A DNA stretch of 45,451 nt from Campylobacterota bacterium. Lineage in GTDB: Bacteria > Campylobacterota > Campylobacteria > Campylobacterales > Sulfurovaceae. The notes below the pieces were generated by a model. The model had not been told where the DNA came from, ran no database searches, and saw nothing but the letters and a program-made list of their open reading frames with translations. Location: positions 1 through 45,451 of the forward strand of contig JAADFE010000071.1 in assembly GCA_013153055.1 (NCBI GenBank), read 5' to 3'. Below are positions 6,250 to 26,818 of this stretch, one piece after another. Position 1 is the stretch's first letter; each line of letters begins with the position of its first letter. Both the position numbers and the translations under genes were made by a program.

Positions 6250-6282
6250 ATTAATTTCCTTCTTTAATTCTATAATTTAAAA

Positions 6283-6482: not shown

Positions 6483-6866
6483 TTATAATTTTTGTTCTTT
6501 AGAACTATCAACTATTGCTTCCATAAGTTGATGTTCCGTAATAGGTTTTGTTAAAAAAGCGTTAGCACCTTTGGTTAGTGACTCTTTTTTTCTTGTATCA
6601 TTGGAGGAGATAGCAATGATTGGAATATTTTTATTTTGGTCATACTTCATATGATATTCTAAGAAATCTATTCCATCTATTTTAGGCATTTCTATATCTA
6701 ATAGTATGAGTTGAATATCAGGATTTTCATGAACCTGTTGTAAAGCATCCTCTCCATCAACAGATTCAATAGCTTTGACTTGATATAGATTTTTTTTCAA
6801 AATTTCAATAAGTAGTTTTCTATTGATATAATCATCATCAATAATCAAAACTTTAAATCCTACCAT
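6483..6866 (-). CDS. Stand-alone CheY-like response regulator
   Basis: This 127-residue single receiver domain has no output domain. The acidic pocket is D10/D11/D12, the phospho-acceptor is D57 (LILLDIEMPKIDG), the switch residue is S87 and the conserved Lys is K107 (KPI). Its ATG overlaps the stop codon of the upstream hybrid kinase (TAATG), so the two are translationally coupled and it is very likely the final phosphate acceptor or a phosphate sink of that relay. With no DNA-binding part it must act by protein contact, or by competing for phosphoryl groups from the HPt protein two genes upstream. Confidence 0.9.
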   Translation of the reverse strand: MVGFKVLIIDDDYINRKLLIEILKKNLYQVKAIESVDGEDALQQVHENPDIQLILLDIEMPKIDGIDFLEYHMKYDQNKNIPIIAISSNDTRKKESLTKGANAFLTKPITEHQLMEAIVDSSKEQKL

Positions 6867-9800
6867 TAGTAACCCCTATACTTTTGTATAATATTTTGGA
6901 TTTCATCCTTTTGTATAATACCAATAATCTCTTCTTTTATGTTGCTATCTAGTGTGCTGTCTTGAGATTTTGTTAAACTTAATAAAATTATATTCATATC
7001 TTTATGTTGGTTGGAAATAATATTTTTATTCGATTTTTCTAGTTCTCTATCTATTAAAAGAATATCATATTTTTTATCTTTTATTTTGTATTTTAAAGTA
7101 TCCATATTATCTATAATCTCTATTTTATAGTTTAGATTAGATAGTACTTTAGATAATATCTGTGCCTCTAATGGATTTTTTTTGGCTATTAATATACTTT
7201 TTTGCTCTTTGTCCTCTTCATACTCTTCATCTTCTATTAGAGATATGACTCCATTATTGATTTGTGTTGTTTTCGCTTTTTCTATAATAGTATTTTTGGT
7301 TTCTTCATTTGTGTTTTTCTTTTGAATAGGTTCAATATATTCTTCTTCTTTTTGTTTTAAAAACTTTTTGAGTATGAATAGAAGCTCACTATTTTCAATC
7401 GGTTTTGCTATATATTCATCTAACCCATCTTCTATAAACCTTTCTCTATCACCTTTTAAGGCATTAGCTGTTAGTGCTACAATAGGTGTGTGTTCTAATG
7501 ACTCCTCATTTTCATAGTTAACAATCTCATGAGTAGCTTCTACCCCATCCATTACAGGCATTTGAATATCCATTAAGATTAAGTCATATTTTGTATTTTT
7601 AATCTTTTCAAATGCTTCTAGTCCATTATTTGCTAGTTCTACCTCTATGCCATATTTTATAAGTATCTGTTTTATGAGCTTTTGATTGATGATATTATCT
7701 TCTGCTACAAGTATTTTACCCTCAAATTGTATATTGTTAAAAGGTGTACTAGCATCTTTTGGACTAGTAGTTATATCATTGTCTTTGTTGTTTCTACTCT
7801 GTTCTATAATATTTATAGCATTTAAAATTTTTGTTGGGGTAATTGGTTTATATATTATTTTACTCTGCTTGATACCTAGAGATTCTATTTTGTTACGGTT
7901 ACTAAAGCTAGTAATTAGAGTAACTTTGTTAGCATCCAATCTATGAATACTATTTATTAATTCGTTATCCATATTATCTATATCTAACCAGATATTATGA
8001 ACCTCTGGGTCTGCATTAAATCTTTTTAAATCTCCTGCTGTCTCAAAAGTTTTCGCATCTACTCCATAATACTCTAAATATTTAGTGATATATTTATCTA
8101 GTTGTGTTGGAGTGTGGCTTTGATATCGTACTAAGGAGATATCATTATCTATATGCTCTTGAGCTAATTTGGTACTCTCTATCACCTCTTCAAGCTCTAG
8201 TGTAAAGTAAAATCTAGTACCTTTCTCTTTTTGGCTCTCTAGTTTTAGCTCACTTCCCATAAGCTCTAAAAATTTGGTAGATATAGTAAGTCCAAGTCCT
8301 GTACCACCATATTTTCTAGTGATAGATACATCAGCTTGGGTAAATGCTGCAAATACATTAAGCTGTTGCTCTTTGGTCATACCTATACCATTATCTTGGA
8401 TACTAAATAGGATTTTGGCATGGTTATCTTCTGTAGCTAACTTTGTAATCTCAACATTAATAAATCCACCAAAATCTGTAAATTTAACAGCATTGCTAAG
8501 TAGATTGATTAGTATCTCTTTGATTTTAACAGCATCACCTAGTAGCTTTTTGTTTATAGATGGGTCTAGGAAAAAGTTGAAATCTATATCTTTTTCAGAG
8601 GCTTTAACACCATATGTCTCAATAGCATTTTCAAACTCCACAATAGGGTCAAATACTATATTCTCTAGCTCTATTTTATTGCTTTCTATTTTAGAGAGGT
8701 CTAAGATATTATTGATAATACTTAGTAGATTTTCTGAACTCTTTTCTATAATACCTGTAAACTCTAGCTGTTCCTCATCTAGGTCTGTACTCTTTAGAAG
8801 CTCTGTAAAGCCTACAATACCATTTAGTGGAGTTCTAATCTCATGAGACATATTTGCCAAAAATAGGGATTTAGACTCATTTGCTTGAAGTGCTTGGATT
8901 TTATCTTGTCTAGCATTTTCAATTAGAAGTTCCAAAAATTTATAAGCCTCTTTGATACCTTGATTGGTATTTAGATTTATACTTTTTATCTCATTGATAC
9001 TAGGTGCATCAAATGTATGGTCTGACTCTATCTCTTTTGCTGTATTATTTAAAATCTCTTCAAGGCTTTTGATATTATTGGTTATCTCTTTTCTTGTTTT
9101 ATAGCCCAATACGGTTAATATAAGCGATAAAATCCAGAAAAAACTAGCAACTATCAAGATAATAATATTTTGCAAAATAAAAGCATCATTTTTTGTCCAA
9201 AGTGTTTTTTTGATTTCATTTTGTATTTTAGAGAAATATTTTATCTTGTCATCGTGCATTAAAAACCAGCTAACAGGCTCAATTGGATACTCACCATCAT
9301 CAACATGTCTCTGTATTTTTGAGTTGCTTGTCTCTATATCTATATCTATATTTTTATATTTTCTACTACTCATTATAGAGAATATCTTAGCTCTTAGAGT
9401 ATCATCACTTATCTCTTCGGGATTAAATGTATTTGCTTTTAGTCTATATTTATTCCAATCCGTAATATCCTGCTGAGTCATAGCTAGGTGTTTCATCAAA
9501 AAGTAGTTGATAAAATCTCTCTCTAGGGATATGTTCTCAGTTGCTACATATATCTGAGATAGTGATGTTATTAGTGAGCTTATCTCATCATCAAATTTAT
9601 AATGGTTTATGAGCAGTTCAAAATTTAAAATAGGTTGGGTCAAATTTTGTGTATATCTTTTTTTAAAAGCCTCTTTAAAAGATATAGCACCAGCATCAAT
9701 ATCAGCACGAATTGAATCTAACTGCTTGAAGTGATAGAATATAGTTTGATTATCATAGTCTATTTTGGAGTTATATAGAGCAGAAAAATATGAGTGATGA

Positions 9801-10102
9801 TTTATAGGTATCATCATTTTTTTTGCTTTTTGGATAGCTTTGTCTGTCAAAACTCTCTGTCTGAGTAGCTCTTCTTTTGCATGTAAATCACTGTTTGAAC
9901 CCAAATAGCTAGAGCTTAGACCTCTCTCTTTTCCTACTTGAGTTAAAACTTCGTTTAGATAAACATTATTCTTAATAATATCTTTTAGTTCACTAGCTTT
10001 ATAATACTGACTATATGAGAGGTATAAAAAGTAACTAGATATTATAAAAAGTAAAACAATAGGGAACATACTTATCAATTTAAGCCGATTATCCATTTGC
10101 AT
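6866..10102 (-). CDS. Hybrid sensor histidine kinase with NIT-type periplasmic sensor
   Basis: This 1078-residue membrane kinase has a TM helix at about 11-30, a periplasmic region of about 280 residues, and a second TM at about 311-334. The sensor contains the [14 protein letters not shown] motif (res 56-69) typical of NIT (nitrate/nitrite-sensing) domains, although the ligand is not proven. HisKA carries H420 ([14 protein letters not shown]). HATPase_c has N533/N537, DNGIGM (570-575) and GGTGLGL (599-605). A good receiver has D845 ([13 protein letters not shown]). Two weaker receiver-like segments flank it, at about 655-765 (KPITP at 752) and about 970-1078 (ILLIDRE), both lacking parts of the acidic pocket. 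A Shine-Dalgarno AAGGAGAA sits 8 nt before the ATG. It lies 12 nt after the HPt gene and overlaps the receiver gene downstream. Confidence 0.88.
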
Positions 10103-10114
10103 AAGATGTTCTCC

Positions 10115-11410
10115 TTATTTTTGTTTTGGTTGTTTCATATACTTCTCTAAAGAGATAAATAGACCCCAGAATTTCATAAATAGCCCTTTAAGTTTAGAGT
10201 GTTCTGTACAAAATTGTATCTCCTCTAAAACATCGGCTAATTCATTAATTCTAAGGTTACTAGCTGCTCCTTTTAGTTTATGTCCAAGTTCATGGATATT
10301 ATCCATATCTTTTTGATAGTATGATGCAAGAAGATGGTCTTTGTCATGATGAGCTTGTTCTATAAAATCTTCTACAAACTCCTCAATTAGTACAACAGGT
10401 AGATTTAACTCATCTGCTGCGATTTTTGGATTATAATTAATTGGTAGAGCAGGGGCATCCTCTAGTATAATCTTTTCAGGGTCATCACTATTTAATGGAG
10501 TATGAGTTTTTTGTTCTGTCGGTTTAGATATGATAGGCTCATCTAGTGGAGCTAAATCATCATCAAGACCTAAATCTAAATCTAGGTCTAAATCTAAATC
10601 TAAATCCATCAAATCTTTTTCTTCTTTTTTAGGAGTCTCTTTTGGAGTTATAGTCTCTTCTATCTCATCCTCTTTTATCTCAAGAGTTAACTCTTCCTCT
10701 TTTGGCATACTGCTGACAAGCTCTGTAAATCTGCTATCTAATACCTCTTCTTTCGTATCAGGGGTATCTTTGATAAAGATATCATTTGCATTAGCAGTAG
10801 GAAGAGCTTGTGATGCTTCTGTAGTTTTATTTCTGTTTTCTGTTGGTGCTTTTAGTGTGAGTAGAGCTAGTTTTGTATAGTACTCATCAATATAGTATGT
10901 TCTCTCTTCTTTAGGAAGTTTCTGAATTTTTAATAGTAATATATTTATATTAGGAATTTTGAGTGTCAAAGCTAAATTTGCAAGATTTTTGATAGCTTTG
11001 TCATCACCTGCAAAGAGTTTCTGTTCATCAATAATTGATTGGTCTATAAAACTATCAAGATATAGTTTATAATCCTCAACACTTAGACCTATCTCTTTAG
11101 AGATTTTTTCTACATCTAGGTAGATAGGATGGTAGTTTAGTTGTAGTTTACTAATCTTGTTTTTGGTCTCTATAATATTACTTAGTTTAACTACAGTGAT
11201 ATTACCCTCTTGTGTAAAAAATAGAGTTTGAGCATAGTTTGCTTTGATACTTTTATCTGGTTGTTCTATATATATTTTGTTGTTTTCAAACTTAATATTC
11301 TTATCTATACCATTTTTTATAATATCATTAAATGTTTTATATCCTAATAGCTCAATAAACTCACTATCTGCCATTATTATCTTTTTGTCTTTATTATATC
11401 CGTAATACAT
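10115..11410 (-). CDS. HPt phosphotransfer protein with PAS-like N-terminus and a second, degenerate HPt-like domain
   Basis: This 431-residue cytosolic protein ends in an HPt domain (about 330-425) with phospho-acceptor H377 in GHKLKGAASNL. Residues 1-80 look like a small PAS-type sensor half (ADSEFIELLGY). Residues about 105-165 resemble the C-terminal HPt in spacing and sequence (IGLSVEDYKLYLDSFI ... NLANLALTLKIPNI), but the His position is Asn (about N145), so this copy should not carry phosphate. An acidic linker (about 200-320) contains an LD repeat near 268-281. Its place between a PAS protein and a hybrid kinase supports a role carrying phosphate from the kinase receiver (D845) to the stand-alone regulator. 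The HPt call is firm; the degenerate copy is my own alignment by eye. Confidence 0.82.
   Translation of the reverse strand: MYYGYNKDKKIIMADSEFIELLGYKTFNDIIKNGIDKNIKFENNKIYIEQPDKSIKANYAQTLFFTQEGNITVVKLSNIIETKNKISKLQLNYHPIYLDVEKISKEIGLSVEDYKLYLDSFIDQSIIDEQKLFAGDDKAIKNLANLALTLKIPNINILLLKIQKLPKEERTYYIDEYYTKLALLTLKAPTENRNKTTEASQALPTANANDIFIKDTPDTKEEVLDSRFTELVSSMPKEEELTLEIKEDEIEETITPKETPKKEEKDLMDLDLDLDLDLDLGLDDDLAPLDEPIISKPTEQKTHTPLNSDDPEKIILEDAPALPINYNPKIAADELNLPVVLIEEFVEDFIEQAHHDKDHLLASYYQKDMDNIHELGHKLKGAASNLRINELADVLEEIQFCTEHSKLKGLFMKFWGLFISLEKYMKQPKQK
10569..10608 (-). repeat. Hexanucleotide repeat encoding a Leu-Asp run
   Basis: About six to seven copies of a 6-bp unit (CTAAAT or CTAGGT on the plus strand) encode alternating Leu and Asp in the linker of the HPt protein. 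Because the unit is six bases, slippage would change linker length without breaking the frame. Confidence 0.8.
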
Positions 11411-13814: not shown

Positions 13815-15324
13815 ACCAATGGCTCCATCCATCATTATAGTATTTGATAAGTTTATGGCTACTAAGTTTATTTGCTTCAACTTCAATCTTATCTATATCA
13901 GGAGGAAAGATTATCATTCTTTTCCAAATATTATTATTAGTTAAATATTTTAATCCTTTTAGAGGAGTTATATCTATATTTTTTAGAGGTATATTTGAAG
14001 AGAGGACAAATCCCCACTCTCCAAAGCTTGGGATATAAAGATGATATGGCAATATATGTAGTTTTGTAACTTCTATCGATTTGGCTATTGCCCAAAAAGC
14101 TTTTCTTGAGAACATTGGAGAGTTGGCTTGTGTTACCATTGCTCCATATCTTGAGAGATGAGATTTAAGCAAGTGATAAAAAGTAACACTATATAAACGA
14201 CTTAGAGAGATACTATTTGGGTCTGGCAAATCTATAATAATGACATCATAAAGCTCTTTTGAATTTTCCAAAAATTTCCACGCATCTTTATTTACTACTG
14301 TTACTTTTGGATTGTCAAAAGAGTGATGATTTAGCTCACTTAGTTTTGGATGGGTTCTAAATAGAGTAGTTACAGCAGGGTCTAAATCAACTAAGGTTAC
14401 TTTGCCTATATCTTGATATTTTAGTATCTCTCTAAGTGCCAATCCATCTCCACCACCGATAACTAATATATTTTGATGACTCTTTGCTGTTTGCATTACT
14501 GGGTGAACTAAGGATTCATGATAGCGATACTCATCTATAGTATCAAACTGTATAGCACCATTGATATAAAACTGTATTCTACCATTTATGGAGGTAACTA
14601 TGAGTTTTTGATATGGTGTCTGTTTTGAGTAGATAATACTATTTTTATAGAGCTTGTTCTCTATCATAGATGTTAGGGTATTTGATTTGATAAATCCTAG
14701 TATCAAAATAGCACCTATAACTATGATAGCTACTAGATATTTTTTCCCTAGTCTATCTCTAAATATACTCCAAGCCATAGCTCCTACAAATAGATTGAGT
14801 CCACCAAAGAGAAAAGCTGTTTGCATAAGTCCAAGTTGAGGTACTAAAACCAAAGGAAAAAGTAAAGAAGCAAACAAAGCCCCTATATAATCAAGAGTAA
14901 ATACATTTGATATATTGGTCTTTAGAGAGAAACTCTCTTTTAGTATGCGAATAATTAGAGGTATCTCAAATCCCAACATACTACCAATACCAATAGTAAC
15001 AAGATATAAAAAAGCCTCATAGTTTTTGATATAAGCAAAAGCAAAAAATAGAATAAAAGCAGAAAAACCACCCAGTAGAGCTATTGCAAACTGCAAAATC
15101 ACAAAGGCTCTCTCTAAATCTCTATCTATAAAACGAGATAACCAAGCCCCAATTCCCATAGATGACATAAAAAGCCCAATAACTAAAGAGAAGTGATAGA
15201 CCGAGTCTCCAAGTAGATATGAAGAGAGTGTACCATTGAGTAGTTCATATACTAAGCCACTAATGGCTATGAGAAAAGTTCCAAAAAGTAGAGATATCTC
15301 TTTTGTTTTTGTTGGTTGTTTCAT
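13807..15324 (-). CDS. Membrane-fused spermidine-synthase-like (polyamine aminopropyltransferase) protein
   Basis: This 505-residue protein has about seven TM helices (res 10-215) followed by a SAM-fold aminopropyltransferase-like domain (about 230-450). Hallmarks are DEYRYHESLVHP (264-275), the glycine-rich VIGGGDG (288-294), LVDLDP (311-316) and IIDLPDPNS. Soluble SpeE transfers aminopropyl from decarboxylated SAM to putrescine; membrane-fused homologues are widespread but their true substrate is uncertain. No SAM decarboxylase gene is in this window. The ATG overlaps the DUF350 stop (ATGA) and its 3' end overlaps uvrC, so it is in the same transcript as the DUF4178/DUF350 genes, which suggests a joint membrane function. 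Confidence 0.85.
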   Translation of the reverse strand: MKQPTKTKEISLLFGTFLIAISGLVYELLNGTLSSYLLGDSVYHFSLVIGLFMSSMGIGAWLSRFIDRDLERAFVILQFAIALLGGFSAFILFFAFAYIKNYEAFLYLVTIGIGSMLGFEIPLIIRILKESFSLKTNISNVFTLDYIGALFASLLFPLVLVPQLGLMQTAFLFGGLNLFVGAMAWSIFRDRLGKKYLVAIIVIGAILILGFIKSNTLTSMIENKLYKNSIIYSKQTPYQKLIVTSINGRIQFYINGAIQFDTIDEYRYHESLVHPVMQTAKSHQNILVIGGGDGLALREILKYQDIGKVTLVDLDPAVTTLFRTHPKLSELNHHSFDNPKVTVVNKDAWKFLENSKELYDVIIIDLPDPNSISLSRLYSVTFYHLLKSHLSRYGAMVTQANSPMFSRKAFWAIAKSIEVTKLHILPYHLYIPSFGEWGFVLSSNIPLKNIDITPLKGLKYLTNNNIWKRMIIFPPDIDKIEVEANKLSSHKLIKYYNDGWSHWYE

Positions 15325-17040: not shown

Positions 17041-17780
17041 TCATATACTCCACTAATAGAAAATGGGTCAATCCACTCGCCTACATATGTACTTTTTTTA
17101 TTATCGACAAACTCGACTGTGACTAATGATGCTCCACCTTTTGATAGGTGTGCGTATTTGTGAGTATCTCCTATTTTTACAATTTTTGGTAACTCTCCCT
17201 CAAAACCTACACACTCTCCTGTGCCAAGTTCGGTTACTATATATTTACCATACTCTTTTCCCACTACCAACTCATCAAAAGAGCTAAAAGGCAAAGGGAT
17301 ATTCATAGGCTTTTCAAGTGCAAAATCCCCCTCATCAATACTGAGCCAATACTCTCTACTATCTTCACCTTTTAAAAACCACTCTTCCCAAAATCCTCTA
17401 CCATAGCTATATCTAATCTTACCTAGAGGCATATATGATTTTTTCTCTATGATAATAGGCTCTGAGATTTTGATAAGTGAAGGCTCAGGAGATAGAGTTG
17501 AGGCTTTCCCTATGAGTTTGACACCATCATCTTCTAAAAATATAGAAGATTTACAAGATGGACACTCTACTAGTTTTGTCCATCTGAAATAGATAGGTAG
17601 CTCATCTCCACACTGTGGGCAGTTGATGGTTTTTATAGCTTTTGTATCATAGAGTGGTTTTATAGTTTTGCCTTTTGTTAAAGTTTTGGAAACGGAGACT
17701 TCAGTCCCGAAAAGAGCGAAGCTGAAGCTATTAATTCCTAAGTCTATTTTTTTGAGACAATTATACTCAGTTTTTTTTAA
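17037..17780 (-). CDS. Zinc-ribbon DUF4178 protein with damaged or non-canonical 5' end
   Basis: The C-terminal 131 codons from an ATG at 17432 encode a DUF4178 domain (RGFWEEWFLKGEDSREYWLS). The frame stays open upstream to 17780 and there encodes a clear zinc ribbon (NCPQCGDELPIYFRW ... CPSCKSS) like that of the next gene, so the ATG at 17432 would cut off a real domain. No ATG, GTG or TTG exists in frame between 17780 and the ribbon. That stretch includes a GC-rich inverted repeat (17692-17730). Either translation starts at a rare codon (ATT/ATA), or the 5' end was replaced and the gene is a remnant. It ends in a 4-nt overlap with the second DUF4178 gene. Confidence 0.6.
   Translation of the reverse strand, partial: LKKTEYNCLKKIDLGINSFSFALFGTEVSVSKTLTKGKTIKPLYDTKAIKTINCPQCGDELPIYFRWTKLVECPSCKSSIFLEDDGVKLIGKASTLSPEPSLIKISEPIIIEKKSYMPLGKIRYSYGRGFWEEWFLKGEDSREYWLSIDEGDFALEKPMNIPLPFSSFDELVVGKEYGKYIVTELGTGECVGFEGELPKIVKIGDTHKYAHLSKGGASLVTVEFVDNKKSTYVGEWIDPFSISGVYE
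17692..17730. repeat. GC-rich REP-like inverted repeat at the 5' end of the DUF4178 gene
   Basis: Roughly 40 bp with about half G+C in an A+T-rich area. It contains GGAGACT/AGTCCC arms and a second pair CTTCAG ... CTGAAG, so it can fold as overlapping hairpins. It sits where the start of the zinc-ribbon/DUF4178 gene would be expected. It differs in sequence from the REPs at 42964-44202. Confidence 0.5.
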
Positions 17781-18210
17781 TCATGCTTTTAATTTTTTTA
17801 AAAGCTTCTTGTAAATCTTCATCTTTGCACTCTATCTCAAAATCTCCTGATGCCATCTCACTATAATATGGGATAGTTTGCTCTTTTTTTTCATCTTGGA
17901 TTATAGTTTTAAATTTTGAGTTAAAGAAAACTACCTTGTTGGCTACCAAAAAGTTACATCTCTCATCTTGCTTTCTCAAAAGGCTTAATATACTCTTTAA
18001 TAAATCTTTATTATAATTGAGTTCCATTTTGTATCCAGGGTGTCGTAGAGCTACAAATAGCGTATTTTGTCTTATATATACAAATGCTATTGCTTTTTGA
18101 AACTTGGGGCTTAATAGAGATATAAACTTCTGATAGCAATAGTGGCTCTGAAGTGATTTAAACTCAGGTAGGTGTAGTATATGCGAAAGTATCGTATTAG
18201 CTTTTTTCAT
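17767..18210 (-). CDS. DUF721 protein (DciA-like)
   Basis: The 147-residue protein resembles the DUF721 family as found in Campylobacterota (ANTILSHILHLPEFKSL, FQKAIAFVYIRQNTLFVAL, HPGYKMELNYNKDLL). DUF721 includes DciA, the ancestral loader of the replicative helicase, and an equivalent role is inferred, not shown. It is the first gene of the minus-strand operon running to uvrC. A TATAAT lies only 6 nt before the ATG, which predicts a leaderless transcript. Its first 30 nt overlap, antisense, the start of the small lipoprotein gene on the plus strand. Confidence 0.75.
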   Translation of the reverse strand: MKKANTILSHILHLPEFKSLQSHYCYQKFISLLSPKFQKAIAFVYIRQNTLFVALRHPGYKMELNYNKDLLKSILSLLRKQDERCNFLVANKVVFFNSKFKTIIQDEKKEQTIPYYSEMASGDFEIECKDEDLQEAFKKIKSMIKKN

Positions 18211-18315
18211 GTCTTAATTATAGCATCTTTTTGCTGTTTGGTATTAAATGGGTGTGGTTACAAAGCTGACCCATATTGGGTTGAGAAACCAAAAACAATA
18301 AAAAAGGGGGAGTGA
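18181..18315 (+). CDS. Small lipoprotein (44 aa), LptM/YifL-like
   Basis: An ATG at 18181 opens a 44-codon frame: a basic start MRKYRISFF, a hydrophobic stretch HVLIIASFCCLVLNGC with lipobox LNGC (Cys25), then GYKADPYWVEKPKTIKKGE. The CGxKxPxY pattern after the lipid Cys is the signature of tiny outer-membrane lipoproteins such as LptM (YifL), which assist LPS-transporter assembly in E. coli; assignment to that family is by pattern only. AGGTG lies 8 nt upstream. Its TGA overlaps the nadB ATG (TGATG), giving translational coupling and fixing the nadB start. Its first 30 nt are antisense to the DUF721 start. Confidence 0.8.
   Translation: MRKYRISFFHVLIIASFCCLVLNGCGYKADPYWVEKPKTIKKGE
18217..18222 (-). 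promoter_or_regulatory. Putative -10 box for the DUF721 operon (leaderless)
   Basis: TATAAT on the minus strand with six nucleotides (TAAGAC) before the ATG at 18210. Transcription starting the usual 6-7 nt after the -10 would begin at or beside the A of the start codon. No Shine-Dalgarno is present. The box lies inside the divergent lipoprotein gene. Confidence 0.55.
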
Positions 18316-19763
18316 TGGATAAGTATGATGTACTTATTATAGGTGCAGGGATTGCAGGACTTTATGCTGCTATGAATTTGCCAGAGAATAAAAAGGTTCT
18401 GGTAGTATGCAAAGATATTCCATGGGAGTGTAATACCTTTTACGCACAAGGTGGAATGGTAACAGCATTGGATGAGAGTGATATTCCTCTACATGTAGAA
18501 GATACCATGATAGCAGGTGCTTATCACAATAAAAAAGAGGCTGTAGAGATACTTAGTCAAACCTCATTAGATACTACAGCAGATATAATCGCTAGAGGTA
18601 TGGAGTTTGACAAAGATGAAGATGGAAATATCCTATATACCAAAGAGGCAGCCCACTCAACAGGACGAATAGTTCACGCTGGAGGCGATGCAACTGGGAG
18701 ATATATGCACTACTTTATGATGGTGCAAAACAAACATAAACTCCAGAGAAATACTCTGGTGTATGATTTGCTTATAGAAAATGGTAGATGTTATGGTGTA
18801 AAAGCGTTAGTAAATTATCAACACCAGACTATATATGCTGATGATATTATTATAGCTAGTGGAGGGGTTGGCTCACTATATGAGTATAATACAAACTCAA
18901 GAACAGTATCAGCTGATATTCATGGTATCTGTGTTGAAAAAGGCATAGAACTAGAGGATATGGAGATGATGCAGTTTCATCCTACTGTGTTTGTTAAAAC
19001 TCCTTTTGCTAGGAAGTTTTTGCTCACAGAGGCACTCAGAGGTGAGGGGGCTTGGGTTGTTGATAAAAATGGTAGGAGATTTCTTTTTGATTATGATGAT
19101 AGAGGAGAGTTGGCTAGTCGTGATATAGTTAGCCGTGCTATATTTAATCATAAAAAAGAGACAGGAGAGGATGCTTATCTCGATTTTTCTATGTTTGAAG
19201 AGAAGTGGTTTCAAAACAGATTTCCAAATATCACTAGAACTTTTGAGGCTTTGGGGTATCATTTTCCTCATGATAGAGTTCCGATATCTCCAGCTTTTCA
19301 TTATGCAGTTGGTGGAATTAAGAGTGACTTGGATGGTTGTGTAGAGGGTATAGATGGACTATATGTTATAGGTGAAGCAGCTAGTACAGGAGTTCATGGA
19401 GCTAATAGATTAGCTTCAAACTCTCTACTGGAGGGTGTAGTTTTTGCAAAAAGAGCCACACAACATATTTTAGGTAAAGAGCATACTAAACTTAAAATAC
19501 CAGTTTTTGATAAAGAGTATAAAAATATAGTTCATCAAGAGAAAGATAGAGTCTATAAACACCGTCTGCGTAAAATTATGTGGGATGATATAGGTGTTAT
19601 TCGTACGAGAAAAGGTCTGCTTGAAGCTAAAAATATTATCTATGATATGAAAAATAGAGAGATAGGACGACTGCTAGAGCTTAGATTAAATACAGCCTCA
19701 GCTATAGTAGAAGCTGCCCTTAAACGAAAAGAGTCATTGGGTACTCACTATATCGAAAAGTAA
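18315..19763 (+). CDS. nadB: L-aspartate oxidase
   Basis: NadB oxidises L-aspartate to iminoaspartate, the first step of de novo NAD synthesis (fumarate can serve as acceptor under anoxia). The 482-residue flavoprotein has the FAD-binding GAGIAG near the N-terminus, ARGMEFDKDEDGNI, SGGVGSLYEYNTN, EMMQFHPTVF, TEALRGEGAWVVDKNGRRF, GELASRDIVSRAI, and GEAASTGVHGANRLASNSLLEG, in the order of NadB/SdhA flavoproteins. Length and the short C-terminus favour NadB over succinate dehydrogenase, and no SdhB/C neighbours exist. I prefer ATG 18315 to the GTG at 18312 because of the TGATG coupling and the preceding AGGGGGAG. nadA and nadC are not nearby. Confidence 0.9.
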   Translation: MDKYDVLIIGAGIAGLYAAMNLPENKKVLVVCKDIPWECNTFYAQGGMVTALDESDIPLHVEDTMIAGAYHNKKEAVEILSQTSLDTTADIIARGMEFDKDEDGNILYTKEAAHSTGRIVHAGGDATGRYMHYFMMVQNKHKLQRNTLVYDLLIENGRCYGVKALVNYQHQTIYADDIIIASGGVGSLYEYNTNSRTVSADIHGICVEKGIELEDMEMMQFHPTVFVKTPFARKFLLTEALRGEGAWVVDKNGRRFLFDYDDRGELASRDIVSRAIFNHKKETGEDAYLDFSMFEEKWFQNRFPNITRTFEALGYHFPHDRVPISPAFHYAVGGIKSDLDGCVEGIDGLYVIGEAASTGVHGANRLASNSLLEGVVFAKRATQHILGKEHTKLKIPVFDKEYKNIVHQEKDRVYKHRLRKIMWDDIGVIRTRKGLLEAKNIIYDMKNREIGRLLELRLNTASAIVEAALKRKESLGTHYIEK

Positions 19764-19875
19764 CAAATAATCATCTGCTTTCATAAGAATAGAGATGTTT
19801 TTGTTACCAAAAGATACGATTGTGCTCTTTTGAATAGTCAAAATTTAATTGTTAGGAAAAATTTTGAATTTCTAC

Positions 19876-19881
19876 TATAAT
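19876..19881 (+). promoter_or_regulatory. Putative -10 box of nhaD
   Basis: TATAAT, 33 nt before the preferred ATG at 19915 and inside the stretch that a longer TTG-initiated reading would translate. This argues for the downstream start. Confidence 0.55.
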
Positions 19882-19914
19882 ACACATGTATTAAAATTAT
19901 TATACGGAGTAAAT

Positions 19915-21249
19915 ATGCACGACTTACACTTAGCAACCACATGGGTTGGATGGGTATCATTAGCTATATTTGTTATAGGTTATTATTTTATTGCGACAGA
20001 GGATAAATACCATATTAACAAAGCAAAACCAGCACTTCTAGCAGGTACTGGTATATTTATGTTAATAGGTTTTTATTTTTCCATTAATGGATTAGATGGA
20101 GAAATTCTTGAAAAAGAGGTAGAACATCTAATTGTTGAGATTTCAGGTATCTTCTTTTTCTTATTTGTTGCTATGACCTATATTGAAGCGATGATAGATA
20201 GAGGTGTTTTTTCTACATTGAGATATAATCTAGTATCAAAAGGTTATAGTTATCGTAAACTATTTTGGGTTACAGGACTTTTAGCATTTTTTATCTCTCC
20301 TGTAGCTGATAACCTTACTACAGCACTTATTCTCTCAACTGTATTAATTACAATAGACAAAGATAACAAACAGTTTTTGGTTCCAAGTGCAATCAATATT
20401 GTTGTAGCAGCTAATGCTGGTGGGGCATGGAGTCCATTTGGTGATATCACTACTCTAATGGTATGGGTTGATGGTAAAGCTGATTTTACAGAGTTTTTGT
20501 TTCTATTCCCAGCAGCATTTTTAGGATGGGGAGTTACAGCCTTTTTACTTAGTAAATTTATTCCAGATGGTATGCCACCATTTAATAGTTCAGAAGAAAA
20601 AGCTACTATTTTAAAAGGTGGAAAAGTGATTATTGGGCTTTTTGCTTTGACTATAACTTTAGCAATTATCTCTCATCAAGCACTTCACTTACCTGCTATG
20701 TGGGGGATGATGTTTGGTTTGTCTATCCTAAAACTTTATGTATATATCATGAATCAGAGAAATAGACATAATCCACTAGAAGAGACCAATAGTATTAATG
20801 CTTTTAGTTGGATAGCAAAAATCGAGAATGATACGCTACTATTTTTCTTTGGTATCTTAGCAGCTGTTGGTGGACTTCACTTTTTAGGATTTTTGGATTA
20901 TTTTACAAAACTATATGATGTATTTGGAGCTACAGTTGTAAATATAGCAGTTGGTTTTATCTCTGCTATTATAGACAATGTACCAGTTATGAGTGCTGTA
21001 CTAAAAGCTAACCCAAATATGGGTACAGGAATTGAAATTCAAGAGCAGTGGATGTTAGTTACTCTAACAGCTGGTGTTGGTGGAAGTCTTATCTCCTTTG
21101 GTAGTGCTGCTGGTGTTGGTGTTATGGGTAAACTTCATGGTATCTATACATTTAGTTCACATATGAAGTATGCTTGGACAGTACTTTTAGGTTATATCGT
21201 ATCAGTTGCTATCTGGTATGTACAGTTTAGTTTGTTGCATATAGGTTAA
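19915..21249 (+). CDS. nhaD: Na+/H+ antiporter NhaD
   Basis: NhaD exchanges cytoplasmic Na+ (or Li+) for protons in the inner membrane. The 444-residue product has about 12 TM helices and ion-transporter family signatures: FLFVAMTYIEAMIDRGVF, FFISPVADNLTTALIL, NIVVAANAGGAWSPFGDITT, SAIIDNVPVMSAVL and GGSLISFGSAAGVGVMGKL, with Asp/Asn pairs in membrane segments. The ATG at 19915 has GGAGT 6-8 nt upstream; a longer frame from TTG 19849 would run through the likely promoter. It is monocistronic, closed by a hairpin at 21265. A salt- or sulfide-rich marine habitat would fit but is not proven. Confidence 0.92.
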   Translation: MHDLHLATTWVGWVSLAIFVIGYYFIATEDKYHINKAKPALLAGTGIFMLIGFYFSINGLDGEILEKEVEHLIVEISGIFFFLFVAMTYIEAMIDRGVFSTLRYNLVSKGYSYRKLFWVTGLLAFFISPVADNLTTALILSTVLITIDKDNKQFLVPSAINIVVAANAGGAWSPFGDITTLMVWVDGKADFTEFLFLFPAAFLGWGVTAFLLSKFIPDGMPPFNSSEEKATILKGGKVIIGLFALTITLAIISHQALHLPAMWGMMFGLSILKLYVYIMNQRNRHNPLEETNSINAFSWIAKIENDTLLFFFGILAAVGGLHFLGFLDYFTKLYDVFGATVVNIAVGFISAIIDNVPVMSAVLKANPNMGTGIEIQEQWMLVTLTAGVGGSLISFGSAAGVGVMGKLHGIYTFSSHMKYAWTVLLGYIVSVAIWYVQFSLLHIG

Positions 21250-21264
21250 TTTTTACTTTTTTTT

Positions 21265-21281
21265 GTGGGCTTTTTGCCCAC
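21265..21281 (+). terminator. Hairpin terminator after nhaD
   Basis: GTGGGC, loop TTTTT, GCCCAC, followed by TTCTT, 15 nt after the nhaD stop. The stem is 6 bp and all but one pair are G-C; the T-tract is imperfect. Confidence 0.6.
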
Positions 21282-21350
21282 TTCTTACTATTTTCCCTCC
21301 TTTTTGTTATTATTGCAACTTATGTAGCATAATAAACTAATATATAGTTA

Positions 21351-21356
21351 TATAAT
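21351..21356 (+). promoter_or_regulatory. Putative -10 box for the DUF1931 gene
   Basis: TATAAT 40 nt before the ATG at 21397. The leader carries AAAAAAAGGA as ribosome binding site. No -35 can be defended. Confidence 0.5.
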
Positions 21357-21396
21357 ACCTCTGTCAAAAAATAAATTTTAAAAAAAAGGAAAAATT

Positions 21397-21846
21397 ATGG
21401 CAGTAGTAGGATTTACAAAATTAGAGGCACTTTTTAGAAAGGCAGCTTCGTTAGATATTCACAAAGAACATGCAAAAGAGATAGTTGATTTTGTTGGCAA
21501 AAAAGTATATGACTTGCTTTTAGCAGCTGAACTTAGTGCTAGTATGAATAATCGAGATATTATATTAGAGAGTGATTTACCAATCACAAAGGGTCTTCAA
21601 GAGACAATTATTGAGTTTAGAAAGCTTGAAGAGGAGCTACCAATAGAGGATATTTTGGAGCAGTTAACTCACTATCCTGTATTAAAATATGCCTTATCTC
21701 CAGAAGTAGAAGCAAATTTACCAGAAATTACAGGAACTATGCTAGTAGTTATGGCAAAAGTTATGAAACATATCAATGAAGATAGTCGTCATGTAACTGC
21801 AGAGTTGATAGAAAAATCTAAAGATATTTTAGACCTAACTCTATAA
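21397..21846 (+). CDS. DUF1931 protein, bacterial doublet (two-fold) histone
   Basis: The 149-residue protein matches DUF1931, whose Aquifex member Aq_328 has two histone folds in one chain. Residues about 5-70 show the short-long-short helix pattern (FTKLEALFRKAASL; EHAKEIVDFVGKKVYDLLLAAELSASM; DIILESDLPITKGLQETI) with the NNRDIILESDL loop. Residues about 75-149 form a second fold (LPEITGTMLVVMAKVMKHINEDSRHVTAELIEKSKDIL). Its surface is acidic for a DNA wrapper. Whether it binds DNA, or another partner, is not known from sequence. It stands 22 nt ahead of the HdeD-like gene, probably co-transcribed. Confidence 0.8.
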   Translation: MAVVGFTKLEALFRKAASLDIHKEHAKEIVDFVGKKVYDLLLAAELSASMNNRDIILESDLPITKGLQETIIEFRKLEEELPIEDILEQLTHYPVLKYALSPEVEANLPEITGTMLVVMAKVMKHINEDSRHVTAELIEKSKDILDLTL

Positions 21847-21868
21847 AAAAATTTAAAAAGGATATGTT

Positions 21869-22429
21869 ATGATGAATTATAAATTGTTTATTAATAATAA
21901 AGATATAACAGAAAAGTTTGCTAAAACTAGTAAACTTTATGGTATATTATTTATTATCTTAGGTTTAGTGGGAATGTTTTTTCCTGGTATAATGTCTTTA
22001 ACCTCGGCTGTATTTCTTGGTTGGCTTTTATTGTTTAGTGGTATATTTACTGCTGTTCAAACTTGGCAAGTCAATAAAAAAGATTGGATTAGTTGGTTAA
22101 AAAGTTTATTATATATAGTTGTCTCTATATTAATAGTGCTAAATCCATTATCAGGTATTGTTGCTTTAGCTGTTGTATTTACAGCATACTTTTTTATAGA
22201 TAGTGGATTAAATTTAGCTTTGGCTTTTAGTCTTAGACCAAATGATGGTTGGTGGATAGTACTACTTAACTCTATCTTGTCATTAGCTATTGGTATCTTC
22301 TTCTTTTTGGCTATAGGTAATCCATTGAAAACCATATGGCTTGTAGGAATGTTTGTAGGTATTAGTCTATTTTTTGATGGAGTAATGCTACTAACTCTCT
22401 CCAGTGCAGCAAAAGAGGATAATAAATAA
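21869..22429 (+). CDS. HdeD/DUF308 family membrane protein
   Basis: The 186-residue protein has six predicted TM helices arranged as in HdeD (DUF308): LYGILFIILGLVGMFFPGIMSL, FLGWLLLFSGIFTAVQTWQ, SLLYIVVSILIVLNPLSG, and later ILSLAIGIFFFLAIGNP and WLVGMFVGISLFFDGVMLL. HdeD in E. coli belongs to acid resistance; its mechanism is unclear. The first of two adjacent ATGs (21869, 21872) is best spaced from AAGGA. It is coupled with the DUF1931 histone-like gene, suggesting a shared stress response. Confidence 0.85.
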   Translation: MMNYKLFINNKDITEKFAKTSKLYGILFIILGLVGMFFPGIMSLTSAVFLGWLLLFSGIFTAVQTWQVNKKDWISWLKSLLYIVVSILIVLNPLSGIVALAVVFTAYFFIDSGLNLALAFSLRPNDGWWIVLLNSILSLAIGIFFFLAIGNPLKTIWLVGMFVGISLFFDGVMLLTLSSAAKEDNK

Positions 22430-22444
22430 TCCAATTTTCTACTT

Positions 22445-22460
22445 TCCCACTTTTGTGGGA
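22445..22460 (+). terminator. Weak hairpin terminator after the HdeD-like gene
   Basis: TCCCAC, loop TTTT, GTGGGA in the 131-nt gap before guaA. No T-tract follows, so function is uncertain. Confidence 0.4.
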
Positions 22461-22509
22461 ATATCTTCATATTTTAATATCATCCATATCCCTCTCATTA
22501 AATATATTG

Positions 22510-22515
22510 TATAAT
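22510..22515 (+). promoter_or_regulatory. Putative -10 box of guaA
   Basis: TATAAT preceded by TTG, 45 nt before the guaA ATG; the leader holds AAAAAGGA as ribosome binding site. Confidence 0.5.
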
Positions 22516-22560
22516 TTCAAATCAATTTAAACTTCTACAACCAAAAAGGAAACCATCATA

Positions 22561-24096
22561 ATGAAACAAGTACCAATATTAGTATTAGACTTTGGCTCAC
22601 AATACACGCAATTAATAGCTAGAAAACTTAGAGAGAGTGGAGTATATTGTGAAGTTGTACCATATCGAGAAGATATAGAGAGTATCAAAGCTAGAAAACC
22701 TCAGGGTATTATTCTCTCAGGAGGACCAGCTTCTGTTTATGCACCTGATGCCTATAAACCAGATGATGAAATTTGGGATTTGGGATTACCTATTATGGGG
22801 ATTTGTTATGGTATGCAACTTATTACTCAACATTTTGGTGGAGAGGTAGTACCAGCTACTCACCATGAGTATGGAAAAGCAAAACTATCTATATCAGAAT
22901 CTCCAATCTTTAAAGGGATGAGTGATAATAAAACTGTTTGGATGAGTCATGGAGACAAAGCAGAAAAATTACCAGAGGGTTTTGAGGTTATAGGAACTAG
23001 TGAAAATTCGCCATATGCAGCTATAGCAAATGAAGAGAAGAAAATTTATGCTTTTCAATTTCATCCAGAGGTTCACCACACAGAAGAGGGTACAAAACTA
23101 CTTAAAAATTTTGCAAAATATATATGTGGTTGTAGTAGTACTTGGAATATGGGAAGCTTTGCCAAAGAGAAAATCAAAGCTATCCAAGAGCAAGTAGGTG
23201 ACAAAAAGGTACTATGTGGAGTAAGTGGTGGAGTTGATAGCTCAGTTGTAGCTGCTCTACTGCATGAAGCTTTGCCAAAAGAGCAACTTATATGTGTATT
23301 TGTTGACCAAGGATTGCTTAGAAAAGATGAAGCAAAACAGGTTCAAGATATGTTCAAGCTACTAGATATCCCACTAATTACTATCGATGCAAAAGATGAG
23401 TTCATGAAAGCTCTAAAAGGGGTAACAGACCCAGAGCAAAAGAGAAAAGCTATCGGAGAGAAGTTTATAGAGGTATTTGATAAAGAGGCTAGTAAACATA
23501 CAGATGTAGAGTTTTTAGCTCAGGGAACTTTATATACAGATGTTATTGAGTCAGTATCAGTTAAAGGTCCATCAAAAACTATCAAATCTCATCATAATGT
23601 AGGTGGATTGCCTGATTGGATGACATTTGAATTAGTAGAACCACTTAGAGAGATATTTAAAGATGAGGTTAGAAAATTAGGGTTAGAGCTTGGTTTGCCA
23701 AAACATATGTTAGAGAGACACCCATTTCCAGGACCAGGTCTTGCTATTCGTGTAATGGGGGAGGTAAATGAGGAGGCACTTAGACTTTTAAGAGAGAGTG
23801 ATGCTATAATGCAAGATGAATTAAGAGCAAGTGGGTATTATAATAAAGTGTGGCAGGCATTTACAGTACTACTCAATGTCCAATCAGTTGGAGTAATGGG
23901 AGATAACCGTACCTATGATAACACTGTATGTATCCGTATGGTAGAGTCAGTTGATGGGATGACTGCTACATTTGCTCATGTTCCTCATGATGTATTGGAG
24001 AGAATGAGTAGGAGAATTATCAATGAGATTGATGGGATAAATAGAGTAGTCTATGATATCTCATCTAAACCACCTGCTACAATTGAGTGGGAATAG
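22561..24096 (+). CDS. guaA: GMP synthase (glutamine-hydrolysing)
   Basis: GuaA converts XMP to GMP using ATP and glutamine. The 511-residue protein has the class I glutamine amidotransferase domain with catalytic C82 (MGICYGMQ), H168 and E170 ([10 protein letters not shown]); the ATP pyrophosphatase P-loop SGGVDSS (222-228); and the C-terminal dimerisation domain ([12 protein letters not shown] ... [11 protein letters not shown], ending PPATIEWE). Length and motifs are fully normal. AAAAGGA precedes the ATG. It is followed after 21 nt by a small periplasmic protein gene, with which it may share a transcript. Confidence 0.98.
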
Positions 24097-24117
24097 ATAG
24101 ATTTATAGGAGGAGAAG

Positions 24118-24606
24118 ATGATAAAAAATATTGTGGTGGTATCTGTTTTAGTTAGTAGTTATCTTTTTGCTATGGGGAGTAGTATAAACTATGATGAACA
24201 GTTTAATCAAGTAGAACAACAAGAGGTAAACTCTAACTCTATAGAGAATGAACTATTTGGATTGAGATTAGATAGTTTTGTTTTTTTGGAAAAAAATGGA
24301 AAAAATGTACCTGTCAAAAAAGTAAAGAGAGGTACTAAAGTAGTCTATATTAATAGGGTTCAAAATAATAACAACACTCCAAAACGAAATATTATTATCA
24401 AAAATCCTATACCAGAGGGAACAGAGTATGTAATAGGTTCTGCTATCTGTCAAGATGGTTGCACTATTAGTTACTCTACTGATGGTGGTCGAACTTTAAT
24501 GCAACAACAGAGTAATAATATGATATATAATTATATAGAGTTTTATTTTCCTGTTATAGCACCTCACAAAGAGATTCGTATGGGGTTTAGAGCTATAGTC
24601 GAGTAG
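24118..24606 (+). CDS. Exported protein with a single DUF11-like beta-sandwich domain
   Basis: This 162-residue protein has a signal peptide (about 1-20, cleavage near LFAMGSS) and one DUF11-like module: KRGTKVVYINRVQNNNNTPK, NIIIKNPIPEGTEYVIGSA, SYSTDGG. DUF11 modules usually occur in tandem in large surface proteins; a lone copy is less usual and may be periplasmic. A strong Shine-Dalgarno (AGGAGGAG) sits before the ATG. The KefB-type antiporter gene follows after 7 nt, so they are co-transcribed, but a functional link is not evident. Confidence 0.7.
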   Translation: MIKNIVVVSVLVSSYLFAMGSSINYDEQFNQVEQQEVNSNSIENELFGLRLDSFVFLEKNGKNVPVKKVKRGTKVVYINRVQNNNNTPKRNIIIKNPIPEGTEYVIGSAICQDGCTISYSTDGGRTLMQQQSNNMIYNYIEFYFPVIAPHKEIRMGFRAIVE

Positions 24607-24613
24607 AATAGCT

Positions 24614-26230
24614 ATGGAACATATACTACTTATACTTATAGCTACTATTACTATATCGACTATTATCAATGTATTTTTAAAAAAATTTGATATACCAACT
24701 GTTATTGGTTATATATTTACAGGTCTCATTACTATGCAGATTTTTGATTTTGGTCTGCATTCTCAGGAGACTCTCTCTCATCTAGCTGAATTTGGTATCG
24801 TCTTTTTGATGTTTACTATAGGGTTAGAGTTCTCTATAGGACATATGAAATCGATGAAAAGAGAGGTATTTGTCTATGGTGCTTTGCAGGTACTGCTTAG
24901 TGGATTTGTATTTACTTTTATATCTCATCATTTTTTTAATTTGGAGGTTAAAAGTGCTATTGTTATAGGTTTTGCCCTAGCACTATCATCTACAGCGATT
25001 GTACTTAAAGTTCTAAATGAAAAAAATCAAATCCATTCAGGATATGGTAGAGTAGCTGTTGGGATATTGATATTTCAAGATTTAGCAGTTATCCCTATGT
25101 TGTTGATGATTTCTATATTTACCTCTGATAATAGTTCAGTATCAGAACTTCTAATTAGTACACTTGTGAGTGCTATAGTTGTATTTTTAATTCTATTTTT
25201 TATAGGTAAGTTTTTTATAGAGAGTTTTTTTGACTGGGTTATATCATCAAACTCTGAGGAGATATTTTTAGGTGCTGTAATGTTGACTGTTATAGCCTCA
25301 TCTGTAGTTGCTGAACTATTTGGTTTCTCTTTTTCTTTAGGGGCATTTATAGCTGGTATGACTATAGCAGAGACCAAATTTAGATATAAAATAGAGGCTG
25401 ATTTGGTTCCATTTAGAGATATACTTTTAGGAGTATTCTTTGTAACTATTGGAATGCAAATAGACCCAACTATTGTTATTAAATATGGATTTGTAATTTT
25501 AGGATTGCTTTTTGCTATTATGCTTATTAAAGCTGTAATTATGTTTTCATATTTAAGATATTTTGTTCAAAATAGAACAGCTATTAAAAGCTCTTTGGCT
25601 TTGATGCAAGTTGGTGAGTTTGCTTTGGCTATATTTGCTTTGGCATTTAGTAATGGTTTAATATCTTCAGATGTAAATCAGATTATGATTATGACTGTAG
25701 TTTTATCTATGGTATTGACCCCTTTTATACTAAATAATATCAAATCTATAGCCAATATAATGTTCAAAGAGCCAACAAAACTTAGAGATAGAGCTATCAA
25801 ATCAACAGGGTATCAAAACCATATAATTATATGTGGATATGGTCCAATAGGAAAGAGATTGGCAAAAAAATTCAAAGAGAAAAATCTACTATATGTAATA
25901 TTAGAGCATGATATAAAACTAGTAGATAGTGCTATAGAAAATGGAGAGAAGTCTATATTTTTAGCCAATGCAGCTCAAAAGAGTGTACTAGAACATTTTA
26001 ATGTCAAAAATTCTTTGGCTGTTATTGTTGCAATTAGTAATGAGCATCAAATTAGATTAATTTGTGAGAATATTAACTCATTTGATGCAAATATAAATAC
26101 TATAGTAAAAGTAAAAAATGACTCTGAAGCAGAGTCTATTAAAGATTTAAATATTAAACATATTGTAAATAGTAGAGATATAATAACAAATATATTAGTT
26201 CAAAAAGCTTTAGAGTGTAAATTGGATTAA
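24614..26230 (+). CDS. CPA2 family cation/proton antiporter with TrkA-N domain (KefB-like)
   Basis: The 538-residue inner-membrane protein has about 12 TM helices (1-385) of the Na+/H+ exchanger CPA2 fold (IPTVIGYIFTGLI, LAEFGIVFLMFTIGLEFSIG, ALALSSTAIVLKVLNE, VGILIFQDLAVIPMLL, LGAFIAGMTIAETKFR) and a cytosolic TrkA-N/RCK domain from about residue 400 (HIIICGYGPIGKRLAKKF), which binds NAD(H). This layout matches KefB/KefC or YbaL, which exchange K+ or Na+ for protons under redox or thiol control. The exact ion and ligand cannot be read from sequence. Confidence 0.88.
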   Translation: MEHILLILIATITISTIINVFLKKFDIPTVIGYIFTGLITMQIFDFGLHSQETLSHLAEFGIVFLMFTIGLEFSIGHMKSMKREVFVYGALQVLLSGFVFTFISHHFFNLEVKSAIVIGFALALSSTAIVLKVLNEKNQIHSGYGRVAVGILIFQDLAVIPMLLMISIFTSDNSSVSELLISTLVSAIVVFLILFFIGKFFIESFFDWVISSNSEEIFLGAVMLTVIASSVVAELFGFSFSLGAFIAGMTIAETKFRYKIEADLVPFRDILLGVFFVTIGMQIDPTIVIKYGFVILGLLFAIMLIKAVIMFSYLRYFVQNRTAIKSSLALMQVGEFALAIFALAFSNGLISSDVNQIMIMTVVLSMVLTPFILNNIKSIANIMFKEPTKLRDRAIKSTGYQNHIIICGYGPIGKRLAKKFKEKNLLYVILEHDIKLVDSAIENGEKSIFLANAAQKSVLEHFNVKNSLAVIVAISNEHQIRLICENINSFDANINTIVKVKNDSEAESIKDLNIKHIVNSRDIITNILVQKALECKLD

Positions 26231-26248
26231 TTCAAAGGATATATGACT

Positions 26249-26818
26249 ATGACCAATAAAATTATAAATAGAGTATTGATAGCCTCTTTGGTTATAGTTT
26301 GGATATGGTCTGCTATTCATCCTTTGCATTTTGATGATTGGTTGCTTGAGAATATCTTGGTTGTTCTCTCTATTCCTCTGTTTTTGTATATAAACAGACG
26401 GGTAAAATTCTCTACACTATCTTATGTTTTGATGACTATTTTTATGGTTTTTCATATCATAGGGGCTCACTATACATACTCAGAGGTTCCATTTGGTTTT
26501 ACTCTAGGTGAGTGGCTAGGTAGTGATAGAAATATGTATGATAGATTGGTTCATTTTCTTTTTGGTGTTCTGTTTGTCTATCCTATTAGAGAGTTATTTG
26601 TATATCAAACAAAGATAAAAGGTTTTTGGAGCTATTTTGTACCGATTATGATTATTTTTGCTTTTGCAGGTGTTTATGAGGTTATGGAGTGGGCAGTAGC
26701 TACTATAGTTAATCCTGATGCAGGGATGGCATTTTTAGGTACACAAGGAGATGTCTGGGATGCACAAAAGGATATGTTTGTAGCTATGGTTGGAGCCTTG
26801 TGGATACTATTTCTCTAG
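26249..26818 (+). CDS. DUF2238 (YjdF-like) membrane protein
   Basis: The product of about 190 residues has five or six TM helices and DUF2238 signatures: FMVFHIIGAHYTYSEVPFG, RNMYDRLVHFLFGVLFVYPI, GVYEVMEWAVATIVNP, and FLGTQGDVWDAQKDMFVAMVGAL. Conserved His, Asp and Glu residues in or near the membrane suggest metal or lipid chemistry, but the function is unknown. An ATG at 26243 is only 3 nt from AGGA, so the ATG at 26249 is the better start. Its 3' end overlaps the convergent ribF gene by 35 nt. Confidence 0.8.
   Translation: MTNKIINRVLIASLVIVWIWSAIHPLHFDDWLLENILVVLSIPLFLYINRRVKFSTLSYVLMTIFMVFHIIGAHYTYSEVPFGFTLGEWLGSDRNMYDRLVHFLFGVLFVYPIRELFVYQTKIKGFWSYFVPIMIIFAFAGVYEVMEWAVATIVNPDAGMAFLGTQGDVWDAQKDMFVAMVGALWILFL

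Follow-up and report, generated by a model that had tools for sequence, protein, structure and literature searches.

The locus considered here raises the question of what a protein with two histone folds does in a bacterium when its gene is followed directly by one for a membrane protein. The two genes lie in a stretch of 45,451 nucleotides from a member of the Campylobacterota (family Sulfurovaceae; contig JAADFE010000071.1), called the window below, and a first-pass annotation of its sequence had proposed a doublet histone of the DUF1931 family, an HdeD-like partner 22 nt away and a stress-linked chromatin or other function. The best explanation of the evidence assembled here is that DUF1931 is probably a non-chromatin histone-fold component of stress-tolerance modules that works through contacts with other proteins. 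The local features of the window are:

19849-21249: CitMHS-type transporter gene, upstream of the DUF1931-DUF308 pair
21265-21281, + strand: terminator-like hairpin from a pattern scan, 3' of the transporter gene and upstream of the pair
21351-21356, + strand: candidate -10 box (TATAAT) 5' of the pair, picked out by eye and lacking a good -35 element
21397-21846, + strand: DUF1931 double histone-fold (pseudodimer) protein P0001, 149 residues, pI 4.94, assigned from PF09123, a structural model and charge
21547-21603, + strand: conserved loop of the first fold of P0001, residues 51-69 (N51, R53, D54, D60, P62, T64, K65, G66, E69)
21869-22429, + strand: DUF308 (HdeD-like) integral membrane protein P0002, 186 residues, about six hydrophobic segments by hydropathy
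22561-24096: guaA, downstream of the DUF308 gene

Both members of the pair are read from the + strand across a gap of 22 nt (21847-21868), as the annotation had stated, and they are presumably co-transcribed. The scan that picked out the hairpin found 2 terminator-like sites in the stretch against 0.6 expected, the second of them within the DUF308 gene; a sigma-70 scan gave 9 matches against 8.2 expected, the TATAAT at 21351-21356 is absent from them, and no promoter reading is drawn. An Rfam search of the window returned no match. The genome holds one DUF1931 gene, and its sole DUF308 matches are the two repeats of P0002.

The proposed identity of P0001 as a DUF1931 doublet is confirmed by its match to the Pfam family (PF09123; E 1.1e-48, 165.3 bits against a cut-off of 21.8), which covers model positions 1-138 of 138, and the closest solved structures by sequence, Thermus TTHA1479 (1wwi, E 8e-29) and Aquifex Aq_328 (1r4v, E 1.8e-13), belong to the same family and match over the whole length. 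An AlphaFold2 model made from an alignment of 62 sequences (P0001 plus 61 relatives) reached a pLDDT of 90.4 and a pTM of 0.84, and it contains two histone-like three-helix units (residues 3-17, 23-50 and 65-76, then 83-90, 102-126 and 135-148). The top Foldseek ranks for this model were 1wwi (TM 0.93) and 1r4v (TM 0.84), followed by viral and Methanopyrus histone doublets, and VIA-align gave Z scores of 23.7 and 17.6 for the same two structures, with values of about 10 for SPT3 of the SAGA complex and many further histone pairs. The histone pseudodimer fold predicted by this model is beyond doubt: comparison with Aq_328, suggested earlier as a check, finds both histone folds present, and the remark that no basic tail follows the second fold also holds, since the last helix ends at residue 148 of 149 with no tail beyond. 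TTHA1479 and Aq_328 are solved structures with no known function; in the window, DUF1931 has DUF308 as its partner.

Among the histone-fold families of bacteria, DUF1931 is one of the two main ones, and the view that such doublets are uncommon in bacteria requires qualification. The family is present in 26 of 397 genomes of the window's phylum and in 25 of 100 of its taxonomic family; in another phylum only 2 of 398 genomes exceed the cut-off, one of them the search centre itself, and a single scan across 84,980 species genomes yielded 312 relatives. No viral relative was found in an IMG/VR scan with the single protein P0001, a mode that reaches close relatives only.

P0001 carries a net charge of -10 at a pI of 4.94, in keeping with the acidity first noted, and all of 122 DUF1931 sequences are likewise acidic (median pI 5.2, maximum 6.32), with medians of 5.23 in the window's phylum (n=43) and 5.21 elsewhere (n=79). 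Among 122 aligned relatives, N51, D60, P62 and G113 are invariant and T64 (121/122), R53 (120/122) and E69 (120/122) nearly so, while the column of D54 holds Asp in 116, Glu in 3 and other residues in 3. Loop 51-69 appears to stand where histones have their RKT loop, an equivalence based partly on the known histone motif and partly on a weak profile match (E 0.38) in which R-D-I-I of DUF1931 lies over R-K-T-V of archaeal histone A, and which would place an acid at the RKT lysine. P0001 thus has neither the RKT lysine and threonine nor the basic character of DNA-wrapping (nucleosomal or alpha3) histones. Because Asp replaces this lysine in 116 of 122 sequences and the protein is acidic, classical DNA wrapping is unlikely, which upholds the doubt that had been expressed about it, and DNA binding of any kind may well be absent. 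Passages on DUF1931 in three papers describe it as without DNA-binding residues (PMC11390915, PMC12701072, PMC13088155), and a passage in another notes that the pI of these doublets is not high, unlike that of one archaeal doublet (PMC10919886). The alpha3 histones HBb, Bd0055 and their kin also place a histone fold in a bacterium, but passages on them describe singlets that have the RKT motif and bind DNA (PMC11390915, PMC10627809), whereas P0001 is an acidic doublet without the RKT lysine.

These observations bear on the alternative that DUF1931 is a stress-specific nucleoid protein, whose histone fold would bind or bridge DNA during heat or acid stress, perhaps within a larger complex. We consider this alternative unlikely in view of the net charge of P0001, the acidity of every relative compared, the exchange of the RKT lysine for Asp or Glu in nearly all of them and the published statements on DNA-binding residues, even though the fold is secure and a figure legend places Aquifex and Thermus DUF1931 among highly expressed histone-fold genes (PMC10627809; correction PMC11521991). 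The suggested chromatin role is not supported: nothing beyond the fold points to one, and charge and loop make it improbable.

The HdeD-like nature of the partner is better supported, as P0002 matches Pfam DUF308 (PF03729) in two stretches (E 2.7e-21, 76.1 bits against a cut-off of 25) and so shares a superfamily with HdeD of the E. coli acid fitness island. Against the NCBIfam HdeD model (NF007577), however, it reaches E 4.3e-18 but only 65.7 bits, below the equivalog cut-off of 189, and its neighbour is DUF1931, in contrast to HdeA/HdeB for E. coli HdeD.

A neighbourhood survey, a check that the first-pass annotation had proposed, showed that the pairing recurs. DUF308 adjoins DUF1931 in 33 of the 46 distinct DUF1931-bearing genomes of the window's phylum (47 loci, one gene being split across two contigs), namely in 20 of 25 genomes of the window's own family, in all those of three other families (10/10, 2/2 and 1/1) and in none of eight in a fourth. 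Within the own family, 24 of 25 DUF1931-bearing genomes contain DUF308, compared with 25 of the 75 others (Fisher p 1.5e-8). In 30 of the 46 genomes (29 loci by clustering, plus G020), the pair or DUF1931 itself has YfdX as a neighbour, whose product opens with a signal-peptide-like stretch; the order YfdX > DUF1931 > DUF308 is contiguous in 26 of 47 loci and YfdX > DUF308 > DUF1931 occurs in two. The genes are tightly spaced, with a median gap of 18.5 nt for DUF1931 > DUF308 (30 loci) and 11 nt for all YfdX > DUF1931 pairs, and in three loci with the reversed order DUF308 > DUF1931 the reading frames overlap (median -4). By clustering, with one member of each group tested against Pfam, a Crp-type gene lies ahead of the operon in 11 loci and DUF505 directly after it in 9.

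The window's pair is the YfdX-less form of this recurrent operon: no YfdX gene stands beside it, and the two YfdX genes of its genome are both on other contigs. In several genomes of the window's family (G014, G024, G042, G031 and others), no more than about 1 kb separates YfdX from DUF308, and DUF1931 is not alongside; DUF1931 is therefore an optional member, added to a YfdX-DUF308 module that exists in its own right.

The pairing also extends beyond the phylum. An alphaproteobacterial metagenome-assembled genome (MAG) of the Hyphomicrobiales (L083) has the order DUF308 > DUF1931 > DUF505, and its DUF1931 belongs to a clade of five sequences (support 1.0), the remaining four also from alphaproteobacterial MAGs, whereas the 43 own-phylum sequences form a separate clade that excludes this group in a midpoint-rooted tree. 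In a member of the Rhodothermales (L079), DUF308, which was missed at the survey threshold and is detected by Pfam, lies one gene from DUF1931, with a DUF5335 gene between. The occurrence of the pair in a separate DUF1931 clade and the Rhodothermales spacing indicate that the pairing arose or moved more than once. DUF505, a family of unknown function, follows a DUF308-DUF1931 unit in two phyla (L083, 4859-5446, and loci like L027-L031).

A combination of YfdX and HdeD is known from the tLST islands of Beta- and Gammaproteobacteria, and passages describing them (PMC8290217) assign YfdX1, YfdX2 and HdeD to an envelope-stress module in which each is required for heat resistance of E. coli, next to a homeostasis module (Hsp20-ClpG) and an oxidative module (Trx-KefB); the genes named for tLST/LHR are YfdX1, YfdX2, HdeD, Hsp20, ClpG/ClpK, Trx, KefB, PsiE, FtsH and DegP. 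Deletion of yfdX or hdeD in Klebsiella is likewise described as lowering acid survival in exponential phase (PMC6394985). YfdX adjoins HdeD in tLST/LHR and, when a place beside the DUF1931-DUF308 unit is counted, in most DUF1931-bearing relatives of the window's phylum, the tLST-type genes Hsp20, Clp, Trx, PsiE and Kef-like also neighbour DUF1931 in other lineages, and DUF1931 thus has neighbours in common with all three tLST modules, across different lineages; the word 'histone' does not occur in the main text of the tLST paper (PMC8290217). A complete tLST island in the window was put low as a candidate, as no Hsp20 or Clp gene occurs among the 17 window proteins scanned, which include every ORF of at least 120 residues in 17767-26818 that overlaps no other scanned ORF, and YfdX does not adjoin the HdeD-like gene.

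Elsewhere, DUF1931 frequently keeps company with chaperones. A tblastn search found 21 plasmids that carry it, and chaperone genes were present in 10 of 10 plasmid regions examined (10 of the 21 matches). In Rhodococcus pyridinivorans, Rhodococcus plasmid pDK4 and Nocardia farcinica, it ends a run of GSP-DnaK-GrpE-J-CbpM-ClpB-Trx-UBP-oxidoreductase genes; two cyanobacterial plasmids have GroEL with Hsp20, Trx and DnaK nearby, a Streptomyces plasmid has GrpE-DnaK, and an Aquicella plasmid has several Hsp20 genes and GroEL/ES. On Aquicella plasmid 4 (L133), an annotated short DUF1931 piece and a second match (9869-10039 and 15001-15324) flank a Tn3-type transposase gene, an arrangement that would fit an interruption or duplication of the gene.

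Chromosomal loci were drawn from the 312 relatives, of which the best 80 by similarity to the Thermus protein had been kept, and 40 were chosen by hand to reduce the redundancy of near-identical loci from Thermus, Streptomyces and Microbispora. At least one of 16 stress or proteostasis families lay within 5 kb of DUF1931 in 22 of these 40 loci, compared with 1 of 60 control stretches taken from the same genomes (controls totalling 512 kb and loci 391 kb, several controls being shortened by contig ends and six coming from contigs with a known HSP20 gene, including the one with the match, L202), the list having been compiled after some loci had been seen, with families seeded from two Rhodococcus plasmids, one Trichormus plasmid and loci that include one of the 40 (L059). 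The proportion was 55 of 80 with near-identical loci included, and a strict chaperone (Hsp20, DnaK, GrpE, J-domain or ClpB) lay within the same distance in 13 of the 40. For HSP20 alone, 0.33 of the 40 genomes would be expected to have it that close and 8 do, although six of the eight are Actinomycetota by record title and the lineages are not independent. Relatives in Thermus adjoin Hsp20 and often a PsiE-type gene, a Na/H exchanger, an SDH-type protease and a baeRF protein, where the window's DUF1931 adjoins DUF308 instead, and the Thermus gene is classed as 'Less Permissive' in a passage reporting that transposon insertions in it are under-represented (PMC13140390). In sum, the suspected link to stress is well supported and stronger than first claimed, with YfdX joining the pair in most relatives and chaperone genes near DUF1931 in many lineages, which suggests that DUF1931 helps stress survival rather than DNA packing.

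Not every locus conforms, and 18 of the 40 have none of the 16 families within 5 kb; at these loci DUF1931 lies near genes for ExbB/ExbD, GreA and acyl-CoA dehydrogenase, among others, some of them metabolic. Together with the absence of adjacent DUF308 from all eight genomes of one family and five of the window's own, and of YfdX from beside the window's pair, this counts against a stress module. The 18 loci would also suit the alternative that DUF1931 is a passenger of mobile stress islands whose surroundings tell little of its own job, as would its patchy presence (25 of 100 family genomes) and carriage on 21 plasmid records. Mere passage is nevertheless quite improbable, because the genes show short gaps, overlapping frames and two orders, and the pair is found anew in a separate DUF1931 clade.

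Another alternative is that DUF1931 is a regulatory or scaffold subunit without a specific tie to proteostasis. It might, for instance, partner a transcription or redox complex, in the manner of SPT3 or the histone domains of SOS, and would lie in stress clusters because these are its targets. Double histone folds that do not serve DNA occur in both SAGA SPT3 and SOS, which are among the structural matches, the Crp-type gene ahead of the operon in 11 loci would supply a regulator, and a gene for a cNMP-binding thioredoxin-reductase-like protein lies near DUF1931 in 12 of the 40 loci. No one regulator or redox partner recurs in every lineage, however, and the neighbours are mainly chaperones and envelope proteins, so we judge such a subunit improbable.

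In the stress-module reading, the DUF1931 and DUF308 genes would form a small co-transcribed stress-tolerance unit, possibly induced by stress, in which DUF1931, as an intramolecular histone-fold pseudodimer, resides in the cytosol without wrapping DNA and the HdeD-like partner sits at the inner membrane. DUF1931 would serve protein quality control and envelope protection, probably by protein-protein contacts, with the near-invariant N-x-R-D...D-L-P-I-T-K-G...E loop as its likely docking site. In most own-phylum relatives YfdX would be the third member and, given its signal-peptide-like start, the module would reach from the periplasm through the membrane into the cytosol. Outside the phylum, DUF1931 would have been added to Hsp20, DnaK-GrpE-DnaJ-ClpB, GroEL or thioredoxin clusters. 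A wider proposal, which we advance only tentatively, is that this branch is an ancient double histone fold whose main job is the stress survival of proteins and membranes, having become a mobile component, shared across phyla, both of chaperone islands and of an envelope operon (YfdX-DUF1931-HdeD). Its conserved loop would then bind proteins at the place that histones use for DNA.

The family and its fold were already known, but neither the setting of its gene in this operon nor its association with chaperones across phyla is described in the non-subscription literature searched; within that scope, passages that name DUF1931 state no link to chaperone clusters or YfdX/HdeD, and they call its role open. 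The association thus turns a 'histone of unknown function' into the subject of a testable hypothesis. If it is correct, a histone fold has been recruited for proteostasis, and DUF1931 is a new component of transmissible stress-tolerance islands.

Other parts of the window were noted in passing. Past guaA and a weakly DUF11-like ORF lies a Kef-type antiporter with a TrkA_N domain (24614-26230, + strand); KefB also occurs in tLST islands, and the intervening genes make a link to the window's antiporter doubtful. On the - strand, a very long protein of secreted type, seen by eye, begins within positions 1-6250; it has repeats of about 690 bases and is cut by the window edge. Also on this strand, 6866-11410 encodes a hybrid NIT-sensor histidine kinase with a receiver domain, adjoining an Hpt-domain protein.
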